From Actinacidiphila bryophytorum (GTDB lineage Bacteria > Actinomycetota > Actinomycetes > Streptomycetales > Streptomycetaceae): DNA of 64,000 bases. The position numbers were made by a program, and so were the translations under genes. The stretch spans positions 248,001 to 312,000 of the forward strand of contig NZ_JAFFIX010000008.1 of assembly GCF_016916835.1 (NCBI RefSeq), written 5' to 3'. Shown one piece after another: positions 525 through 43,960 of the stretch (position 1 is its first letter; each line of letters begins with the position of its first letter). The notes beneath the pieces were generated by a model. It was given only the letters and a program-made list of their open reading frames with translations, did no database searches and was not told the DNA's origin.

Positions 525-750
525 GATCATCGCAGGATCGTAGTGAAGGTCCGGCCCAATCATGAAGTCGGCTGGTCAGCGGGACGGTTGCGGCACCGGA
601 AGGGCGGACTCCGGTCCGCCGGGACCGACTTGGCGAAGTCTTTACAACCCGGGTCCGCGCTGTGTCGTCTCTGATCGCGACTCCTGGTACGGCCGGGGTC
701 CGCGCCCGCTCCAGGGCGCGGCGGGCCGCGGGAGAACGGAGGGACGGGAC

Positions 751-1476
751 ATGCGCAGCACTTCACTGGCCGCCGGTGCGGCGGCGGTTCTGGCGGTGGC
801 GGTCGCGGGGGCCGTGCCCGCCGCGGCCTCGGCCCCGGTCGGCCGGGCCGGCACCCCGATGTGCACGACCTCGCAGCTGACCGGGGCGCTCGGCGGCGGC
901 GACGCGGGAGCCGGCAACCTCTACCGCTACCTGGTCCTGACCAACCACAGCTCCACCACCTGCCACCTCACCGGCTACCCCGGGGTGTCCCTGCTCGACT
1001 CCGCGGGCAAGCAGATCGGCAAGCCGGCCGACCGGCAGCCCAGCCGGTACTCGCCGGTCGTGCTCCGGCCGGGCGCGTCGGCAAGCGACACGATCCACAC
1101 CGTGAACCACATGGGCAAGTGCCTGCCGGCGTCGGCGAAGGTGCGGATATATCCGCCCGGGAACACGGCGTCCATGGTCATCGCCGGTGCCGTGACGAAC
1201 TGCGACAACCTCTTCACGGTGACGCCGATGGCCGCGGGGCGGGACGGGAGCGACCCGGTGAATCCCACGCCCACGCGGACGTCGGCGCCCAAGCCCACGC
1301 CGTCCACCGGGCAGCAGGTCCCGACCGTGCCCGCCGGCGCCCCCGACACCGGGCTCGCCGCCACTGGCTCCGGTCACTCCGCGACCCTGACGGTCGGCGC
1401 GATCGCCGGTGCCGGCGGGGTCCTCCTCGGCGGCCTCACCCTCGCCACGGCCCGCCGCCGCCGCACCCGGGGCTGA
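751..1476 (+). CDS. Cell-wall-sorted DUF4232 protein with LAATG tail
   Basis: 241 residues. ATG at 751 follows GGAGG with good spacing; in-frame starts further upstream would precede the signal peptide and are rejected. Residues 1-28 form a Sec signal peptide ending in AAASA. Residues about 36-165 are a DUF4232 domain with four cysteines likely to form disulfides (MCTTSQL, STTCHLTGYPG, GKCLPAS, VTNCDNLFTVTP). A Pro/Thr-rich linker leads to LAATG at residues 202-206, a hydrophobic segment and an ARRRRTRG tail, which is a complete sortase sorting signal. LAxTG is classically read by class E sortases, so the neighbouring class F-like enzyme may not be the one that anchors it. The function of DUF4232 is unknown. 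Its domain is about 78% identical by hand count to that of the protein at 2906. Confidence 0.87.
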   Translation: MRSTSLAAGAAAVLAVAVAGAVPAAASAPVGRAGTPMCTTSQLTGALGGGDAGAGNLYRYLVLTNHSSTTCHLTGYPGVSLLDSAGKQIGKPADRQPSRYSPVVLRPGASASDTIHTVNHMGKCLPASAKVRIYPPGNTASMVIAGAVTNCDNLFTVTPMAAGRDGSDPVNPTPTRTSAPKPTPSTGQQVPTVPAGAPDTGLAATGSGHSATLTVGAIAGAGGVLLGGLTLATARRRRTRG

Positions 1477-1568
1477 CGTGCCACCCACGCCCGTACCTCA
1501 GCCACAGCCGTGGCCTCCCCCCGCGCCCGTACGGGGCGCCTCCCCCCGCAGCGCGACTGCGGACGCGT

Positions 1569-1737
1569 CGTGGCTTGTCGCGCAGTTCCCCGCGCCCCTG
1601 GGGGTGCCCTCTGGGGAGAGGGCGAGCGTTTTTAGGGGCGCGGGGAACTGCGCGCCCCATCACGACGCACGGAAAGGTGCAAGCTCGCAGCAAGTGGCAA
1701 TCACCCAGGGGCGCGGGGAACTGCGCGACAAGCCACG
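1569..1737. repeat. Perfect 32-bp inverted repeat with a third internal copy of its core
   Basis: Positions 1569-1600 and 1706-1737 are exact reverse complements over 32 bases. The core GGGGCGCGGGGAACTGCGCG recurs a third time at 1634-1654 in the same orientation as the right arm. The core matches a small intergenic palindromic repeat that I recall as widespread in Streptomyces genomes. It sits between the sorted DUF4232 gene and the sortase and could fold into a long stem in the transcript. The right arm falls inside the apparent N-terminus of the sortase if the start at 1694 is used. Confidence 0.8.
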
Positions 1738-2380
1738 GCGGTGGCGCGGGGGACGCGCAGCGTGGGGGGTGGTGGCGGTCATCGCCGCGGTGGTGACCGC
1801 CGGGTGCGACGGGAAGAGCGAGGGCCAGGCGCCGCCCCCGGCCGCGACGGGACGGCACCCCGGCACAGGAGCGGCCACCACCACGGTGGCCCCAAGTGCG
1901 GGGAAGGCCACCCCGATGGCCAGGTCGCAGCCGCAGCGGCTGCGGATACCGGGGCTCGGGGTGGACACCCCCGTCATGTCCGTGGGACTCGCCCCCGACG
2001 GCACCGTCCGCGTCCCGCCGATCAAGGCGCACTCACCGGCCGGGTGGTACGACGGTTCGCCGACGCCGGGCGAGACCGGCCCGTCCGTGCTGCTGGGGCA
2101 CGTGACGGTCGGCGCGTACGGCGACGGCGTCTTCCGGCACCTGGACCGTATGCGCCCCGGCGACCGGGTGAGCATCACCCGGTCGGACGGCACGACCGCG
2201 ACCTTCGCCGTCGACAAGGTGCAGACGGTGGCGAAGTCGCACTTCCCGACGGAGGCGGTGTACGGGAACGTCGACCACCCCGCCCTGCGTCTCATCACGT
2301 GCGGCGGCACGCGTATCTCCGGCGGTGGCGGCTATACGGACAACGTGATCGTCTACGCCTCGCTGGTCGGCGGCTCGTGA
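1694..2380 (+). CDS. Class F-like sortase
   Basis: A sortase-fold transpeptidase expected to cleave sorting motifs of exported proteins. From GTG 1694 it has 228 residues: a basic stretch, a hydrophobic segment ending in VVTAGC that could be a lipobox or membrane anchor, a Thr/Pro/Ala-rich linker, then the beta-barrel from LRIPGLGVDTPV. The catalytic His is in LLGHVTVG (about residue 136) and the Cys in LITCGG (about residue 203). The position where I expect the catalytic Arg (Y-R-D-N in relatives I recall) reads YTDN; an Arg lies four residues after the Cys. The start is uncertain: GTG 1769 or upstream GTGs (1604, 1409) are in frame, and the repeat arm occupies the early codons. The stop overlaps the sigma factor start as GTGA. 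Confidence 0.75.
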   Translation: MAITQGRGELRDKPRRWRGGRAAWGVVAVIAAVVTAGCDGKSEGQAPPPAATGRHPGTGAATTTVAPSAGKATPMARSQPQRLRIPGLGVDTPVMSVGLAPDGTVRVPPIKAHSPAGWYDGSPTPGETGPSVLLGHVTVGAYGDGVFRHLDRMRPGDRVSITRSDGTTATFAVDKVQTVAKSHFPTEAVYGNVDHPALRLITCGGTRISGGGGYTDNVIVYASLVGGS

Positions 2381-2922
2381 ACGACTGGCCGGCGGCGGCC
2401 AGCACCCCGGCGACAGGAGTGAGGAGAGCGGTCATCCGGCGAGAAGAGCGCGCTGCCTCCGAGCTGTTCGAGGCCGTGTACCCGCGGCTCGCGGGCTGGT
2501 GCCGCCGGCTGGTGGACGACGACGGGACGGCGCACGAGATCGCCGCGGAGGCCTTCACCCGGCTGTGGGCGCGCTGGACCGCGGTCGAGGAGCCCAACGG
2601 CTTCCTCTATGTGACCGCGGCCAACCTCGTCCGCGACCACTGGCGCAGAATGGAGCGCGAGCGTCGCGCGCTGCGCCGGGTGAGGACCGAGCAGTCCGTA
2701 CGCCCGCAGGAGGAGGCGGCCGACCCGTCCGTACGCCTGCTGGTTCAGTCGCTGCCCGAGCGGCTGCGCAATCCCGTCCTGCTGTACTACTACGCCGACT
2801 TGCCGGTCCGTGAGGTGGCCGCGCTGCTTGGCCGGAACGAGGGAACCGTGAAGGCCGACCTGCACGCGGCACGCGAACTGCTCCGCGCCCGAATCAGGGG
2901 ACACCATGACTGGATTTCCTGA
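2377..2922 (+). CDS. ECF-type RNA polymerase sigma factor (SigE-like)
   Basis: 181 residues with the two expected regions. Region 2 runs from about residue 28 (LFEAVYPRLAGWCRRLV) to 80, and region 4 from about 125 (LPERLRNPVLLYYY) to 170 with a helix-turn-helix (VREVAALLGRNEGTVKADL). It should direct RNA polymerase to a small regulon. GTG 2377 overlaps the sortase stop as GTGA, implying translational coupling; GTG 2416 is an alternative. The next gene starts 17 bases before its stop and encodes a one-pass membrane protein, the position normally occupied by an anti-sigma factor. I infer that the pair forms a membrane-controlled switch. Confidence 0.88.
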   Translation: MNDWPAAASTPATGVRRAVIRREERAASELFEAVYPRLAGWCRRLVDDDGTAHEIAAEAFTRLWARWTAVEEPNGFLYVTAANLVRDHWRRMERERRALRRVRTEQSVRPQEEAADPSVRLLVQSLPERLRNPVLLYYYADLPVREVAALLGRNEGTVKADLHAARELLRARIRGHHDWIS

Positions 2923-3757
2923 CCCCCGGGGGGACGCACCGGACGGCGACGGCGCCGCGCCGGCGGAGCCGCTGCTGCGGCAGCCGCCGGGGTATCTGGA
3001 CGCGCCGCCTGGTGCGTTCGCGCAGATCCGGCGGCGGGCGGCGCGGCGGCGCCGGGTGCGGGCGGCCGGCGGCGGGCTGGCGGCGGCCGTGGTGCTGACC
3101 GGGTCCGTGTACCTGGTCGGCGCGATGACCTCGCACGGCTCGGACGACGTGGTCAGCCCGCCCGCCAGCAACTCGCTGACCAGTGCGGCGACTTCTGCTC
3201 CCACGCCGACCCGGGGCACCGCCCCGACGCCGACCCCGGGCACGACGGCGCCGCCCGGCACGGGCACCCGCGGGCCGACGGCCACCGGCACCCCCACGCC
3301 GGACCCGGCCCCGACCCGGACCGGCCCGGCGAGCGGCAGCGGGGCGACGCCGATGTGCGCGACCTCGCAGCTGACCGCAGCGCTCGGCGGCGGCGACGCG
3401 GGAGCCGGCAGCCTCTTCCGCTATCTGGTGCTCACCAACCACAGCTCCACGGCCTGCCATCTCACCGGCTACCCGGGGCTGTCGATGCTGGACGCGGACG
3501 GCAGGCAGATCGGGGCGCCGGCCGACCGGCAGCCGATGGCGTACTCGGCGGTGGTGCTGCGGCCGGGCGGGTCGGTGAGCGACACCATCCACACCGTCAA
3601 CCAGCAGGGCACCTGCCTGCCCGCGTCGGTGAAGCTGCGGATCTACCCGCCGGGCAACACCGCGTGGCTGGACTTCCCCGGGAGCGTCACCAACTGCGAC
3701 AACCTCTTCACGGTGACGCCGTTCGCAGCCGGGCGCACGGGCAACCCGCCGTCATGA
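2906..3757 (+). CDS. One-pass membrane protein with DUF4232 ectodomain, candidate anti-sigma factor
   Basis: 283 residues. ATG 2906 lies inside the sigma gene's 3' end behind a purine-rich site. A short cytoplasmic part (residues 1-52, very Arg-rich near the membrane) precedes one transmembrane helix (about 53-74), a long Thr/Pro linker (about 75-148) and a C-terminal DUF4232 domain. That domain carries the same cysteines and landmarks as the sorted protein at 751 (GGGDAGAG, YLVLTNHSST, RIYPPGNTA). Co-translation with the ECF sigma factor suggests an anti-sigma role, but no zinc-binding anti-sigma motif is visible in the short cytoplasmic part, so this is inference. A simple membrane-tethered DUF4232 protein is the alternative. 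Confidence 0.78.
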   Translation: MTGFPDPRGDAPDGDGAAPAEPLLRQPPGYLDAPPGAFAQIRRRAARRRRVRAAGGGLAAAVVLTGSVYLVGAMTSHGSDDVVSPPASNSLTSAATSAPTPTRGTAPTPTPGTTAPPGTGTRGPTATGTPTPDPAPTRTGPASGSGATPMCATSQLTAALGGGDAGAGSLFRYLVLTNHSSTACHLTGYPGLSMLDADGRQIGAPADRQPMAYSAVVLRPGGSVSDTIHTVNQQGTCLPASVKLRIYPPGNTAWLDFPGSVTNCDNLFTVTPFAAGRTGNPPS

Positions 3758-3790: not shown

Positions 3791-4615
3791 TCACCACTCG
3801 TCGGGGCCGCCCGGCAGGTCGAGCAGTGCCAGGTCGGGCGGTACGAGGGTGGTGGACAGCAGGAGTTCGCGCAGCAGGTGGTCGTTGAGGGTGTTGCCGA
3901 CGGGTTCGCCGACCTCCTCGCGGGTCAGGAAGGGGACGCCGTCCCTGGACAGCCGGGTGCGTACCGCACTGACCACGTGCTCGACCTTCTTGTGCCCCCA
4001 GTTCGCGGCGGGCTGCAGGCGGGCCAGGTGGGCGGCGGTGTCCTGCCAGGTCAGCGGCTGCGGGCGCAGTTCGTGGAGCAGGTAGCGGCGGCCGAGGACG
4101 ACCAGGACGAGGCGTTCCTGCTCGCTGAGCAGCCAGGTGCGCGGCGGCAGTGTGATGTCCTCGGGCCGCGGGGTAGGGGCGGCGCCGTCCTGGTCGGTGA
4201 CGTAGACCTCCAGCAGGTGCTCGCGGTGCCGTGAGCCGCGGACGAACAGCGGGGTGTAGCCGGCCTCCAGCGGCAGCGCCTCCTCGCCGGTGAACAGCAG
4301 CCGCCCGCGGGCCAGCCGGATCGGCAGCCGGCCGTGGTTGCTGATCCACCACTGGCCGCCGCGGTGGGTCAGGGTGCCCTGGTGGCGGCTGACCAGCGGG
4401 TCGTCCTCGCCGAGGCAGACGTGCACGGCCGGGCGGTTGCGGCCGAAGAGGACCTCGCGGCCGGGGCCCGGGCCGAGCCGCATGCCGCCGGTGAGGGCGA
4501 GCGCGAAGACGGTGCCCGCGACGGGGGCGGAGACCCCTCGGGCGAGGCTGCCGTGGGTGCCGGGGAGCCGCTGCCCGCCCGGCAGCCCTGCGGTGCCGGC
4601 GGTGTCTGTCGTCAT
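3791..4615 (-). CDS. FHA-domain protein with C-terminal helical (HTH-like) region
   Basis: 274 residues, cytoplasmic. An FHA domain spans about residues 45-115, with LFGRNRPAV, the DPLVSRHQG phosphothreonine-binding core and ISNHG. FHA domains dock phosphothreonine peptides, usually the product of a neighbouring Ser/Thr kinase. The second half (about 150-255) contains LLSEQERLVLVVLGRRYLL and a helical stretch ending in KKVEHVVSAVRTRL that resembles a winged-helix or HTH fold. I am not certain it binds DNA. ATG 4615 has GAGGAAG upstream. It lies 45 bases after the membrane kinase gene and is almost certainly co-transcribed with it, so it is a likely reader or substrate of that kinase. Confidence 0.85.
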   Translation of the reverse strand: MTTDTAGTAGLPGGQRLPGTHGSLARGVSAPVAGTVFALALTGGMRLGPGPGREVLFGRNRPAVHVCLGEDDPLVSRHQGTLTHRGGQWWISNHGRLPIRLARGRLLFTGEEALPLEAGYTPLFVRGSRHREHLLEVYVTDQDGAAPTPRPEDITLPPRTWLLSEQERLVLVVLGRRYLLHELRPQPLTWQDTAAHLARLQPAANWGHKKVEHVVSAVRTRLSRDGVPFLTREEVGEPVGNTLNDHLLRELLLSTTLVPPDLALLDLPGGPDEW

Positions 4616-4660
4616 GGCTGCTTCCTCGTCGGGGGCGGTGCGGAGCGCGGGCGCGCCCGC

Positions 4661-6601
4661 TCAGCGGCCGGGCAGCCGTGCCGCGGCCGCCGTGCCCAAC
4701 TGCTCGGCTGTGTCGCAGAGTTTCCCCACCGCGCCGCTTCCCGACACCGTCAGCTCGACGAGTTCCTCGACGTGCTGCCCGGTGATGTCGGTGAAGTCGC
4801 GGTTGACCAGCCGCAGAGTGCAGGTGCCCCGGTCCTCGTACTCGGGGCTGACGAAGCCCTTGGCGCCGCCGAGCCGGACGGGAGTGCCGTCGCTGGTGTC
4901 CAGCGGCGGGGAGTTGCGGTCGAAGACCAGGTCGATCCCGCTGTCGCCGTCGGAACTGCCCCAGTGGCAGCCCCAGTTGCCGAAGTCCCGGTCGGGGTCG
5001 TCGGCGTGGACGCCGCCCGGGACCGCGCCGATGGCCGCGGGCGTGAGCAGGGAGCAGGCGTCGGCGGTGGCGAGCGAGGCGGGGACGGCGGCGGACGGGC
5101 GGCGCGGTACGGTCCCGGCGCGCAGCACGGTCACCGCGTGGTCGGTGGCGGCGTCGGCCATGGCGCACAGGTCGGGTCCACTGTCGCCGGTGAGCCGGGC
5201 CATGATCTGGATGTGGTTGCCGTCGTCGAGTTGCAGGGTGCGGTCGCACTCGTCGCCGTCGAGGGGTTCGGACGCCACCGTCACGTTGCCGGTCCTGCGG
5301 GTGGGGATGTGCGAGCCGGCCTCGACGTCCTTGCCGAGCAGGGTGGCGGCAACGTCCACGGCCGGGTCCTGCCGGGGCGGTCCCACCAGGACGTCGCAGC
5401 GGTCGAAGTTGCCGTAGTCGGTGACCAGGTCGGTGCTGCCGAAGCGGGCCAGCGGTGCGGTGGCCAGCACCGAGCAGGGGTCGGCGCTGCGGGGGTCGCC
5501 GAGCGCGCTGCGGGCGGGGGACGCGGGGGCGGTCGGCGCGGAGGTGGTGGCGCCGGCGCCGGGCCTGGCGCGGGTGGCGGAACTGCCGGACCGGGCCTGG
5601 GCCGGTGACCCGTCGTCCCAGGGGCTCAGGGACAGCAGGACGGCGGCTGCCGCGGCGGCGAGCACCAGCGCCCCCAGCGCGGCCCGGGTACGGCGCCCGC
5701 CCCACCGGCCGGGCGGGCCGAGCGGCGGCAGGCCGCGGCGCCGGCCGAGGTCGGCGCCCTCGTTGTGCAGCCGGCGTACCGCCTCCGACGGCGGGGCGAC
5801 CTCCGCCATCAGGTCGCGGGTCTCGGCGGCGGCGGGCCTGCTGCCGGGGTCGACCCGCAGCAGTGCGGTCAGCGGCCCGGTGAGCCGGCCGGCCTGCCGG
5901 GGCGGTTCGATGTGGCCGTCCCTGGCCCGCCCGATGTAGGCGAGCGGGCTCTCGGCCTCGCCGTAGGGCACCCGGCCCTCGACGGCGGCGAAGAGCGCGG
6001 CGCCCAGCGAGAACTGGTCGGACTGCCGGCTCGCGGGTTCGCCTTTGGCCACCTCGGGGGCCAGGTAGCGGGGTTTGCCGGGCACACCGCCGCTGAGGCT
6101 GTCGCGGGTGTCGTCGCTCCACAGGGCGCGTGAGATGCCGAAGTCGGCGAGCTTGGCGATGCCGTCGTCGGTGACGAGGATGTTCTCCGGCGTCACGTCG
6201 CCGTGCACGACGCCCTTGGCGTGGGCGGTCGCGAGCGCGTCGGCGATCTGCCAGCCGATCACGGCGGCCTGCTCGGGGCTCAGCGGTCCGTCGTCGGCGA
6301 CGACGGCGGCGAGGCTGCGGGAGCGGACGTACTCCATGACCAGCCAGCTCTGGCCGCCGTCCTCGATGTGGTCGAAGACCGCGACGATGTGCGGGTGGTG
6401 CAGGCGGGCGGCGTTGCGGGCCTCGCTGCGCAGCCGGCCTGTGGCCCTCGCGTCGTCGATGCGGGCGCACTTGAGGGCGACGGTGCGGTCCAGTTCGCGG
6501 TCGTAGGCCCGCCAGACGACGCCCATGCCGCCGGCGCCTATGCGTTCTCGCAGCAGATAGCGCCCGGCTACTTCGTCACCGATCTCCGCCGTTCCCCGCA
6601 C
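4661..6601 (-). CDS. Membrane Ser/Thr protein kinase (PknB-type) with extracellular domain
   Basis: 646 residues from GTG 6601, chosen because GGAG sits 6-8 bases upstream; GTG 6619 would add six residues. The kinase domain covers about 15-270: Gly loop GAGGMGVVW, catalytic Lys in VALKCAR, DFG and APE. The catalytic loop reads HGDVTPENIL, so the usual HRD arginine is a glycine. A transmembrane helix follows a basic juxtamembrane stretch (around residues 300-325, LGALVLAAAAAAVLLSL). The remaining roughly 310 residues are extracellular, with a Ser/Thr/Pro linker and a duplicated-looking, cysteine-containing region (PCSVLATAPLARF, ACSLLTPAAIG). It probably senses an envelope signal. Operon partner: the FHA gene. 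Confidence 0.9.
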   Translation of the reverse strand: MRGTAEIGDEVAGRYLLRERIGAGGMGVVWRAYDRELDRTVALKCARIDDARATGRLRSEARNAARLHHPHIVAVFDHIEDGGQSWLVMEYVRSRSLAAVVADDGPLSPEQAAVIGWQIADALATAHAKGVVHGDVTPENILVTDDGIAKLADFGISRALWSDDTRDSLSGGVPGKPRYLAPEVAKGEPASRQSDQFSLGAALFAAVEGRVPYGEAESPLAYIGRARDGHIEPPRQAGRLTGPLTALLRVDPGSRPAAAETRDLMAEVAPPSEAVRRLHNEGADLGRRRGLPPLGPPGRWGGRRTRAALGALVLAAAAAAVLLSLSPWDDGSPAQARSGSSATRARPGAGATTSAPTAPASPARSALGDPRSADPCSVLATAPLARFGSTDLVTDYGNFDRCDVLVGPPRQDPAVDVAATLLGKDVEAGSHIPTRRTGNVTVASEPLDGDECDRTLQLDDGNHIQIMARLTGDSGPDLCAMADAATDHAVTVLRAGTVPRRPSAAVPASLATADACSLLTPAAIGAVPGGVHADDPDRDFGNWGCHWGSSDGDSGIDLVFDRNSPPLDTSDGTPVRLGGAKGFVSPEYEDRGTCTLRLVNRDFTDITGQHVEELVELTVSGSGAVGKLCDTAEQLGTAAAARLPGR

Positions 6602-6791
6602 CGCGCCGCTCCATTGCACAGATCACGCCTCGTGCCCGCTCCAGCGCAAGGAGCGTACTGCACCCGGCCTGCCCCGGCCGCCACTTGCACCTCTCCGTCA
6701 CCGGGGCTGCGGCCCGTTCCGGGACCGGTCCCGGGCGGCCGGCCGTACGGTCCGCTGGTCCGCGGCGACGGCACGGGAAGGAGCGGGCGCG

Positions 6792-42390: not shown

Positions 42391-43110
42391 TCAGTGCACG
42401 GGGCCGACGTCGAAGGTGTCGCCGCAGACGACCGGGTTCGACGTGGCGAGGGTCATGGAGTCGGTCGATCCCGGCGGGTAGACCATGATCAGGGTGGGCT
42501 TGCGCCAGCAGCTGTCGCCCTTCACGCCCTGGTTGAGGGTGTGCAGGTCGGCCTCCACGGTCTGGCCCGGTGTGATGCGGACAGCAGCCGGCTTGACGCG
42601 CGTACGGTCTGCGGGCCTGCCGATGACGCTGCCGTCGCCGCGCAGCAGCGACACGCCCGGGAAGCCGTCGAGGGTGCAGGCGTGCGAGGTGGTGTTGGTG
42701 AAGTCCAGCGGGTAGTAGACGTTGCCCGCTCCCGGGTCGCCGCGGCCCAGGGTCATCTTCAGCCCGGTGACGGTGCAGCGGCTGCTGCCGGCCGCCTGCG
42801 GGGGCGCCGCCTTGGTGGTGGTGGCGGGCGGTGCGGCGGCCGGCCCGGTGGTGGCGGGTGCGGGCGGCTGCGTACCGGCCGGTGCGGTGCCGGTGGCGCC
42901 GTTGGCCGAGTCGCCCGAGCCGTCGGAGGTGGCGGCCGCCGGCGAGGAGGGCGCCCCGCTGGCACCGGCGGAGGAGCCGGACGCGGCGCCGTCGCCGCAG
43001 CCGACGGCGGCCACGGACAGCAGTGCCGCGGCCGCCGCGGCGAGGAGGGTCCCGCGGTGCCGCGCCCGGTGCGGGCCGGCGGTCGCGGGGCGGTGAGACG
43101 AGATAGGCAT
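42391..43110 (-). CDS. DUF4232 lipoprotein
   Basis: 239 residues from ATG 43110 (GAGAG upstream); in-frame starts further upstream would put about 80 low-complexity residues before the signal peptide and are rejected. The signal ends in a lipobox (SVAAVGCGDG, Cys about residue 34). A Ser/Ala/Thr/Pro linker of about 65 residues precedes the DUF4232 domain (CTVTGLKMTLGRGDPGAGNV, TTSHACTLDGFPGVSLL, MVYPPGSTDS). It is the third DUF4232 protein in the window, clearly more divergent than the pair at 751 and 2906, and is anchored by lipid rather than by sortase or a helix. Function unknown. Confidence 0.85.
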   Translation of the reverse strand: MPISSHRPATAGPHRARHRGTLLAAAAAALLSVAAVGCGDGAASGSSAGASGAPSSPAAATSDGSGDSANGATGTAPAGTQPPAPATTGPAAAPPATTTKAAPPQAAGSSRCTVTGLKMTLGRGDPGAGNVYYPLDFTNTTSHACTLDGFPGVSLLRGDGSVIGRPADRTRVKPAAVRITPGQTVEADLHTLNQGVKGDSCWRKPTLIMVYPPGSTDSMTLATSNPVVCGDTFDVGPVH

Positions 43111-43243
43111 AACTCTCGATTGCTCGCCGGCGGCCGGTTTCGAACCTGTGCAGGCCGGATTGTTGCTGTCTCGGCACATTGTCACCGCAGGGAACACCGG
43201 AATCAGCACACCCATACGACACGGGAACGGATGTGCGTGCCCG

Positions 43244-43960
43244 TCAGTCGCGCGGGTCGCCGTCGTCGGCGCGCTTGCCGCCTTCCGGGGTGTGGCCACC
43301 GGGCTCGTCCGATCCGTCCGTTCCCTCTTCTCCGTCCGCTCCGTCTGTCCCTTCGTCACCTGCCGCGCGGTGGCGGCGGACCTGCCAGGCCACCACCGCG
43401 GCCACCACCACCACCGCGACGACGACGGCCACCGCCGTGCCCGCGGTCTTCTCGACCTGCTTGTAGGCGGTGCCCGCGAAGTACCCCAGCAGGGTGAAGC
43501 CGACGCCCCACACCAGCCCGCCCAGCGCGTTGAAGAGCAGGAACGTCGGGTACGGCATCCGGGAGATACCGGCCAGCGCCGGCATCAGGGCGCGGAAGAA
43601 GGCGATGAAGCGGCCGAGGAAGACCGCAGCGGGGCCGCGCCTGCGGATGAACTCCTGGGCCTGCCCGATCCGCTGCTGGTGGCCGCGCAGCGCCTTGGTC
43701 TCCAGGATCCGCGGGCCGAAGCGCCGGCCGACCTCGTAACCGACCGAGTCCCCCGCAATGGCCGCGAGCACGACCGTGGCGCACAGCCAGTAGACCGACA
43801 CCCTGCCCTGTCCCGCGATGACCCCGCCGAGCACCGCCGCCGTCTCGCCGGGCAGGACGAAGCCGAAGAAGAGCGCGTCCTCGCAGAAGACGAGGGCCGC
43901 CACGATCGCGTAGACCGCGGCGCCCGAGGAGTTCGCGAGCCAGTCGGTGATGGAGTGCAT
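43244..43960 (-). CDS. DedA-family membrane protein
   Basis: 238 residues from ATG 43960 (GGGAAGG upstream; the in-frame start at 43999 is less likely). The DedA/SNARE-associated domain spans about 10-160: CEDALFFGFVLPGETAAVLGG, AIAGDSVGYEVGRRFG, FLGRFIAFFRALMPALAG and GGLVWGVGFTLLGYF. Four to five hydrophobic segments. DedA proteins take part in lipid-carrier and phospholipid flipping across the membrane and envelope homeostasis. A charged, Gly/Asp/Glu-rich cytoplasmic tail (about 195-238) is an addition. Monocistronic. Confidence 0.9.
   Translation of the reverse strand: MHSITDWLANSSGAAVYAIVAALVFCEDALFFGFVLPGETAAVLGGVIAGQGRVSVYWLCATVVLAAIAGDSVGYEVGRRFGPRILETKALRGHQQRIGQAQEFIRRRGPAAVFLGRFIAFFRALMPALAGISRMPYPTFLLFNALGGLVWGVGFTLLGYFAGTAYKQVEKTAGTAVAVVVAVVVVAAVVAWQVRRHRAAGDEGTDGADGEEGTDGSDEPGGHTPEGGKRADDGDPRD

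Follow-up and report, generated by a model that had tools for sequence, protein, structure and literature searches.

A conserved sortase and sigma factor module of Actinacidiphila and Streptomyces as a probable autoregulated switch for wall display

We analysed a 64,000-nucleotide stretch of the genome of Actinacidiphila bryophytorum (contig NZ_JAFFIX010000008.1, positions 248,001 to 312,000; hereafter the window, in whose coordinates positions are given) and focus on four genes on its plus strand, which encode a wall-sorted DUF4232 protein (S), a class F sortase, an extracytoplasmic function (ECF) sigma factor and a membrane DUF4232 protein (M). The S gene (751-1476) specifies a signal peptide, a DUF4232 domain (850-1248; PF14016, E=4e-31) with four invariant cysteines and a predicted beta-sandwich fold, a Pro/Thr linker, a GAPDTG sorting signal (1336-1353), a membrane span and an RRRR tail. 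The sortase gene (1694-2380; start codon uncertain) matches NF033748 and encodes a lipoprotein-like signal peptide with a lipobox-like TAGC at 1796-1807. It is followed by the sigma factor gene (2377-2922; start at GTG 2377 or GTG 2419; PF04542/PF08281 and TIGR02937) and by the M gene (2906-3757; PF14016, E=8e-29), whose product is a probable anti-sigma factor with a DUF4232 ectodomain. A reading made earlier from the letters of the window (hereafter the sequence-only reading) had placed the same four genes here, in agreement with the Pfam and NCBIfam matches and the translations. It had also described overlaps between all genes after the first. The overlap of the sigma and M genes by 17 nt stands and recurs in 96 of 100 modules, whereas the 4-nt overlap of the sortase and sigma genes hinges on the uncertain start GTG 2377 and was dropped as a conserved feature, as it is not kept in relatives.

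The gene order S-sortase-sigma-M, which the sequence-only reading had suggested comparing among relatives, is indeed kept in about 100 modules of Actinacidiphila, Streptomyces and relatives; the sortase is present at 100 of 106 parsed sigma loci and at 80 of 80 loci of named relatives. This type of sigma factor was found in 30 of 35 genomes of the genus, many with two copies, and is carried by 83 of 249 genomes of the family Streptomycetaceae, two of these having a divergent form. Outside the family, the phylum sample gave weak relatives of the sigma factor only. Besides Actinacidiphila, further modules were found in Streptomyces. The window genome itself has a second, paralogous module (L037:2308-4378; C12:204307-206377), which is of the stub type, i.e. 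without DUF4232 in S and M, and which differs in its promoter code (M/AATC, not K/AACC; see below).

An ECF-type promoter, CTTTACAACC-N16-CGTCTCT, is located upstream of S (640-672, plus strand; -35 element at 640-649, -10 element at 666-672) and is predicted to drive the operon. The same arrangement precedes S in 82 of 93 modules (spacing 16 in 80), and a variant with AGCA in 10 more. The strict motif has two matches in the 8.05-Mb window genome, one in front of each module, as compared to zero matches in the reversed control. Within the genus, it was present in 30/30 sigma-bearing genomes and in 0/5 others, and at the level of the family in 81/81 genomes with this sigma factor versus 2/168 others. 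Altogether, the 249 family genomes contain 112 strict matches, 94 of them no more than 3.5 kb from a sigma gene. The other 18 lie farther away, and part of these probably stem from modules broken up by contig ends, given that several sigma loci lacking a motif in their vicinity are located at a contig edge. A wide regulon was considered and rejected at the level of motif matches: when two mismatches were allowed, the window genome gave 16 matches besides the two modules versus 7 in the reversed control, and all 16 carry two mismatches, none fewer. Separately, a promoter-like site outside the modules, CTTTGCAACCCC...CACGTCTC, recurs in several Streptomyces (G064, G128, G183, G220, G225, G236) and may represent another target of the sigma factor or be conserved by chance.

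The sigma factor itself has the ECF architecture, comprising sigma-70 regions 2 and 4 without regions 1 and 3 (PF04542, 37 bits; PF08281, 46 bits; both above cut-off), and scores 60 bits with TIGR02937 (cut-off 42.9); it does not belong to the SigE family as defined by TIGR02983 (81.2 bits versus 141.55 required). One residue of its region 4, situated before DLHAAR two places upstream of the D (in the window a K before ADLHAAR, together with AACC in the -35 element), covaries with the -35 bases: we counted 72 K/AACC, 8 M/AATC-type and 10 R/AGCA pairs with no exception among readable pairs, and 78 further K/AAC pairs in named genomes, all counts coming from related sequences and thus not representing independent events. 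On the sigma+sortase tree, three separate branches carry the R/AGCA combination. In 21 of 21 genomes with two modules, the DUF4232 module uses K and the stub module M or R, and the promoters match wherever they can be read (four sigma factors missed by the pattern were read by eye for this comparison); all single-module genomes use K. Such repeated, coordinated switches make sense if this promoter is read by the sigma factor and cross-talk does harm, and would otherwise be difficult to account for. Since the promoter covaries with the sigma residue and the motif is nearly exclusive to the module genome-wide, the comparison strongly supports a sigma factor whose target is essentially just the promoter of its own operon, which would thus be autoregulated.

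The product of the last gene, M, consists of a cytoplasmic segment of ~50-55 residues (2906-3070), which the alignment across DUF4232 and stub modules marks as the candidate anti-sigma domain, a transmembrane helix found by hydropathy scan (3071-3127; preceded by RRRAARRRRVR), an extracellular stalk that is mucin-like by its Thr/Pro/Ser/Ala-rich composition (3128-3343), and the DUF4232 domain (3344-3742). The stalk contains 19% T and 20% P, and T+S+P+A add up to 66% (medians of the DUF4232 modules). Cytoplasmic segment, membrane span and mucin-like Thr/Pro stalk are always kept, and the segment is the part that remains recognisable between DUF4232 and stub modules. Because these parts are always kept and DUF4232 is optional, any anti-sigma role of M lies in segment, span and stalk, as judged from the conservation pattern. 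The sequence-only reading had put M in the anti-sigma position, and the conserved translational coupling to the sigma gene as well as the retention of the cytoplasmic segment across paralogues bear this out. It had also expected the sigma gene to come with a DUF4232 gene; the domain turned out to be commonly absent, but the membrane protein practically never is. Position, coupling and conservation pattern make M a probable anti-sigma factor; its binding to the sigma factor is something we infer, because no known anti-sigma profile matches significantly.

Related arrangements exist outside the module. A profile of the M segment gave one further convincing match in the window genome, a membrane protein (L245; C88:284116; E=5.5e-5) encoded directly downstream of a different, unrelated ECF sigma factor, a hint that short anti-sigma-like proteins form a wider family. 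At two loci (L121, L122), a divergent Streptomycetaceae sigma factor (58% identical) is followed by a membrane DUF4232 protein, with neither a sortase nor a sorted partner. More distant sigma relatives, again without a sortase, are followed by short-tailed membrane proteins with, as judged by eye, a BNR-like ectodomain (L123-L125).

With respect to sorting, S has the general features of a sortase substrate, namely signal peptide, xxxTG motif, membrane span and basic tail. The sequence-only reading had taken the LAATG string at 1354-1368 for the sorting signal; this was rejected, as LAxTG occurs in just 10 of 93 homologous tails, and S thus lacks the conserved LAXTG of class E sortase substrates. 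In its place, G[AG][AP][DNA]TG is present in 93 of 93 tails, in 77 of them as GAPDTG itself, and always 38-45 residues from the C-terminal end. In stub modules, S is nothing more than a signal peptide, a Pro/Thr/Ala-rich linker of 30-82 residues and the sorting tail; the NCBIfam GVDTG sorting model matches this stub S weakly. Across the phylum, class F sortases (L247-L276) often adjoin a protein with a P.G[GAS][VPIM].TG tail, of which GAPDTG is one form, and this suggests that such a tail is a general class F sorting signal. In Actinoplanes, proteins encoded next to two class F sortases were discounted as substrates, no known pentapeptide having been found (PMC13251363); a motif of the GAPDTG type may be what was missed in these neighbours.

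The sortase of the module belongs to class F according to its NF033748 score (198.6 bits; cut-off 166) and also matches PF04203 (E=1e-24); its catalytic Cys lies in an LRLITCGG stretch. A lipobox signal peptide is present in 79 of 100 module sortases by a strict pattern, and in more when LCGC is included; the homologues carry L[ATSVC][GA]C lipoboxes, the TAGC of the window copy being degenerate. Like the module sortase, many class F sortases elsewhere in the phylum thus have a neighbour with such a tail. However, a sigma-profile match was found near only 2 of 30 of these loci, on the strand opposite to the sortase, and the module enzymes differ in carrying lipoprotein-type signal peptides. The roles of class F sortases have been described as unknown (PMC13251363). 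Between the S and sortase genes of the window (1579-1727), three copies of a repeat, GGCGCGGGGAACTGCGCG, were noted, one of them inverted and one located where the sortase frame presumably has its 5' end.

Both DUF4232 domains of the window score far above the 27-bit threshold of PF14016 (108 and 101 bits) and are 76-77% identical to each other (77% over the domain of M as delimited above), close to the ~78% proposed by the sequence-only reading. Among 100 sortase-bearing modules, 30 have the domain in both S and M and 66 in neither; the four that appear one-sided (L059, L061, L120, L133) are cut by contig ends, and the sortase-less loci L121 and L122, which also looked one-sided, have no S at all. 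Likewise, complete named loci have the domain in both proteins (11) or in neither (53), with no one-sided case. On the sigma+sortase tree, the DUF4232 modules group in a single clade (support 95/94), so that the both-or-neither pattern requires one gain or loss only. The S and M domains of the same locus are more alike (70.5% identity) as compared to shuffled partners (63.8%), a value reached in 0 of 10,000 shuffles. At fourfold-degenerate sites, S-M likeness is 0.67 within a locus versus 0.61 between loci, and site patterns favour concerted change over the homoplasy pattern by 2951 to 470, the locus pairs not being independent. Well-supported nodes unite some S and M copies as sisters (L071) or in small mixed groups (L108/L112, L129), and close relatives such as L057/L063 keep S and M as separate lineages. 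Such concerted evolution is what an interacting pair would show, and passive gene conversion could give it as well. The AlphaFold2 model of the domain is confident (mean predicted local distance difference test score, 90.3) and all-beta. A fold search with this model gave no convincing relative: the best Foldseek hit was a B. subtilis proteinase inhibitor (3isy; E 3.6e-3), and the best VIA Z (6.0), obtained with the archaellum stator FlaG, reflects a shared beta-sandwich arrangement only. In the literature library that was searched, no paper mentions DUF4232. Elsewhere in the window, the minus strand (42391-43359) encodes a third DUF4232 protein, separate from the module, whose signal (VAAVGCGDG) is lipoprotein-like.

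In S. coelicolor, four consecutive genes are annotated as membrane protein (SCO3738), lipoprotein/sortase (SCO3737; cd05829), ECF sigma factor (SCO3736) and putative secreted protein (SCO3735), and SCO3738-SCO3736 were found 13- to 37-fold upregulated in a ppm1 mutant, i.e. upon loss of the donor for protein O-mannosylation; the passages on these genes name the sortase, its neighbour and the sigma factor as the most significantly induced genes, report RNA sequencing for the ppm1 mutant only, and propose that divergent-group sortases are co-transcribed with their substrates (PMC5882110). These genes match the module in order and annotation, by which alone the two were compared, with SCO3735 at the position of M, and they apparently constitute an equivalent module. 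They differ from the window module in presumably being the stub version without DUF4232, as in the Streptomyces loci that we read. In the same passages, no promoter, autoregulation, sorting motif or anti-sigma role of SCO3735 is given (PMC5882110).

Taken together, we interpret the module as a sigma/anti-sigma switch that is self-contained and autoregulated and serves sortase-dependent display on the wall, and consider this to be correct with a probability of roughly 60%. Under this interpretation, the sigma factor would transcribe from the promoter of its own operon and thereby provide S, sortase, sigma factor and M. Signal and gene order suggest that S would be secreted, and that the class F sortase encoded in the same module, itself presumably lipid-anchored, would cleave the GAPDTG signal of S and attach S to the wall. 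M would hold the sigma factor at the membrane via the short cytoplasmic segment, and would free it when a change in the envelope is sensed by the Thr/Pro-rich stalk or the outer domain. Ppm1 synthesises the donor of the mannose used in protein O-mannosylation, a modification typical of Thr/Pro-rich stretches; both M and S carry stretches of this kind. The sensed change probably includes loss of O-mannosylation, as supported by induction of the apparently equivalent S. coelicolor operon; in the simplest case, under-mannosylated or otherwise disturbed stalks would free the sigma factor and raise expression of its own operon. In the DUF4232 version, wall-anchored S might plausibly pair or compete with the membrane copy through the matching domain and thereby tune the switch. 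As a lead, fungal cell-wall sensors of the Wsc/Mid2 type are likewise single-span proteins with an O-mannosylated Ser/Thr-rich stalk; they are unrelated proteins, however, and mannosylation of the stalk in the module is presumed. Carried further, the module could be a wall-display homeostat, in which the sigma factor would serve near-exclusively to make and anchor S, wall-bound S would feed back on M through the matching domain, the O-mannosylated mucin-like stalk would act as sensor, and duplicate modules would be insulated by the one-residue promoter code. This full version appears rather unlikely to us. As for the switch as such, the combination and the promoter code are new, and the parts are of known kinds.

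Several observations weigh against the switch. No known anti-sigma domain was found in M, and its segment in the window has no Pfam match. In the short cytoplasmic segment, the single span and the gene position directly after the sigma gene, M resembles the partner in CnrY-type ECF/anti-sigma pairs (class II, short, two-helix; PMC7406223), but there is no significant sequence similarity (E=0.22, for one of 16 M relatives). Nor did an anti-sigma domain (ASD) profile match M, including the four-helix ASDI type of class I anti-sigma factors, the segment comprising ~50 residues. The equivalence of the S. coelicolor genes rests on order and annotation in the paper, and the ppm1 effect could be indirect, i.e. 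an effect of lipids or lipoglycans, ppm1 loss also altering membrane lipids. Finally, SCO3736 is down-regulated under acid shock (PMC2631018), so that its induction is not a general stress response. The absence of a recognised anti-sigma domain, the shortness of the segment and its strongly basic end would also suit a quite different role of M, that of a second displayed surface protein, with the sigma factor being controlled by transcription or by another protein. We regard this as improbable, given that the cytoplasmic segment is kept while the ectodomain changes, that the 17-nt coupling to the sigma gene is conserved, and that similar short-tailed membrane proteins follow sortase-less ECF sigma factors (L121-L125; L245).

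The sequence-only reading had suggested the DUF4232 pair itself as the sensor, wall-anchored S perhaps reporting the state of the wall by pairing with or displacing the domain of M. The joint presence or absence of the domain in every complete sortase module and the concerted evolution of the two copies speak for such a role, as expected if the copies interact, and in this respect the earlier proposal is partly supported. However, most modules keep promoter, sortase and M without any DUF4232 (66 of 100 have the same order and promoter type), which is why the domain was rejected as the essential sensor, and the both-or-neither pattern needs but a single evolutionary event. A sensor role for the pair thus seems doubtful. 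Somewhat more plausible, albeit still a tentative explanation, is that the likeness of S and M is passive, the two domains being nearby direct repeats homogenised by gene conversion and matching without any role. The greater similarity of fourfold-degenerate sites within loci is a signature of conversion at the DNA level, and the separate S and M lineages in close relatives fit as well; yet passive conversion leaves unexplained that no complete module has the domain in one protein only, across many descendants of the DUF4232 clade. Either way, the pairing of DUF4232 domains is genuine as an evolutionary pattern, but to the proposed sigma/anti-sigma switch it is an optional extra and not the core mechanism.

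Just downstream of the module, on the minus strand (3791-6619), the window encodes two further proteins, one matching FHA weakly and the other a serine/threonine kinase that contains DUF3558 repeats; these neighbours are at least partly conserved beside the module in close relatives (L048, L052).

The module provides class F sortases with a likely substrate signal of the GAPDTG type, a regulator and a possible inducing condition, and thus makes the role of this class directly testable in Streptomyces. It could also explain why sigma factor, sortase and sortase neighbour are the top-induced genes in the S. coelicolor mannosylation-donor mutant. Moreover, it presents a case of natural insulation of paralogues, in which the modules of all 21 two-module genomes differ jointly in one sigma residue and in one to three promoter bases, and this residue/promoter code would be useful for building orthogonal ECF circuits.

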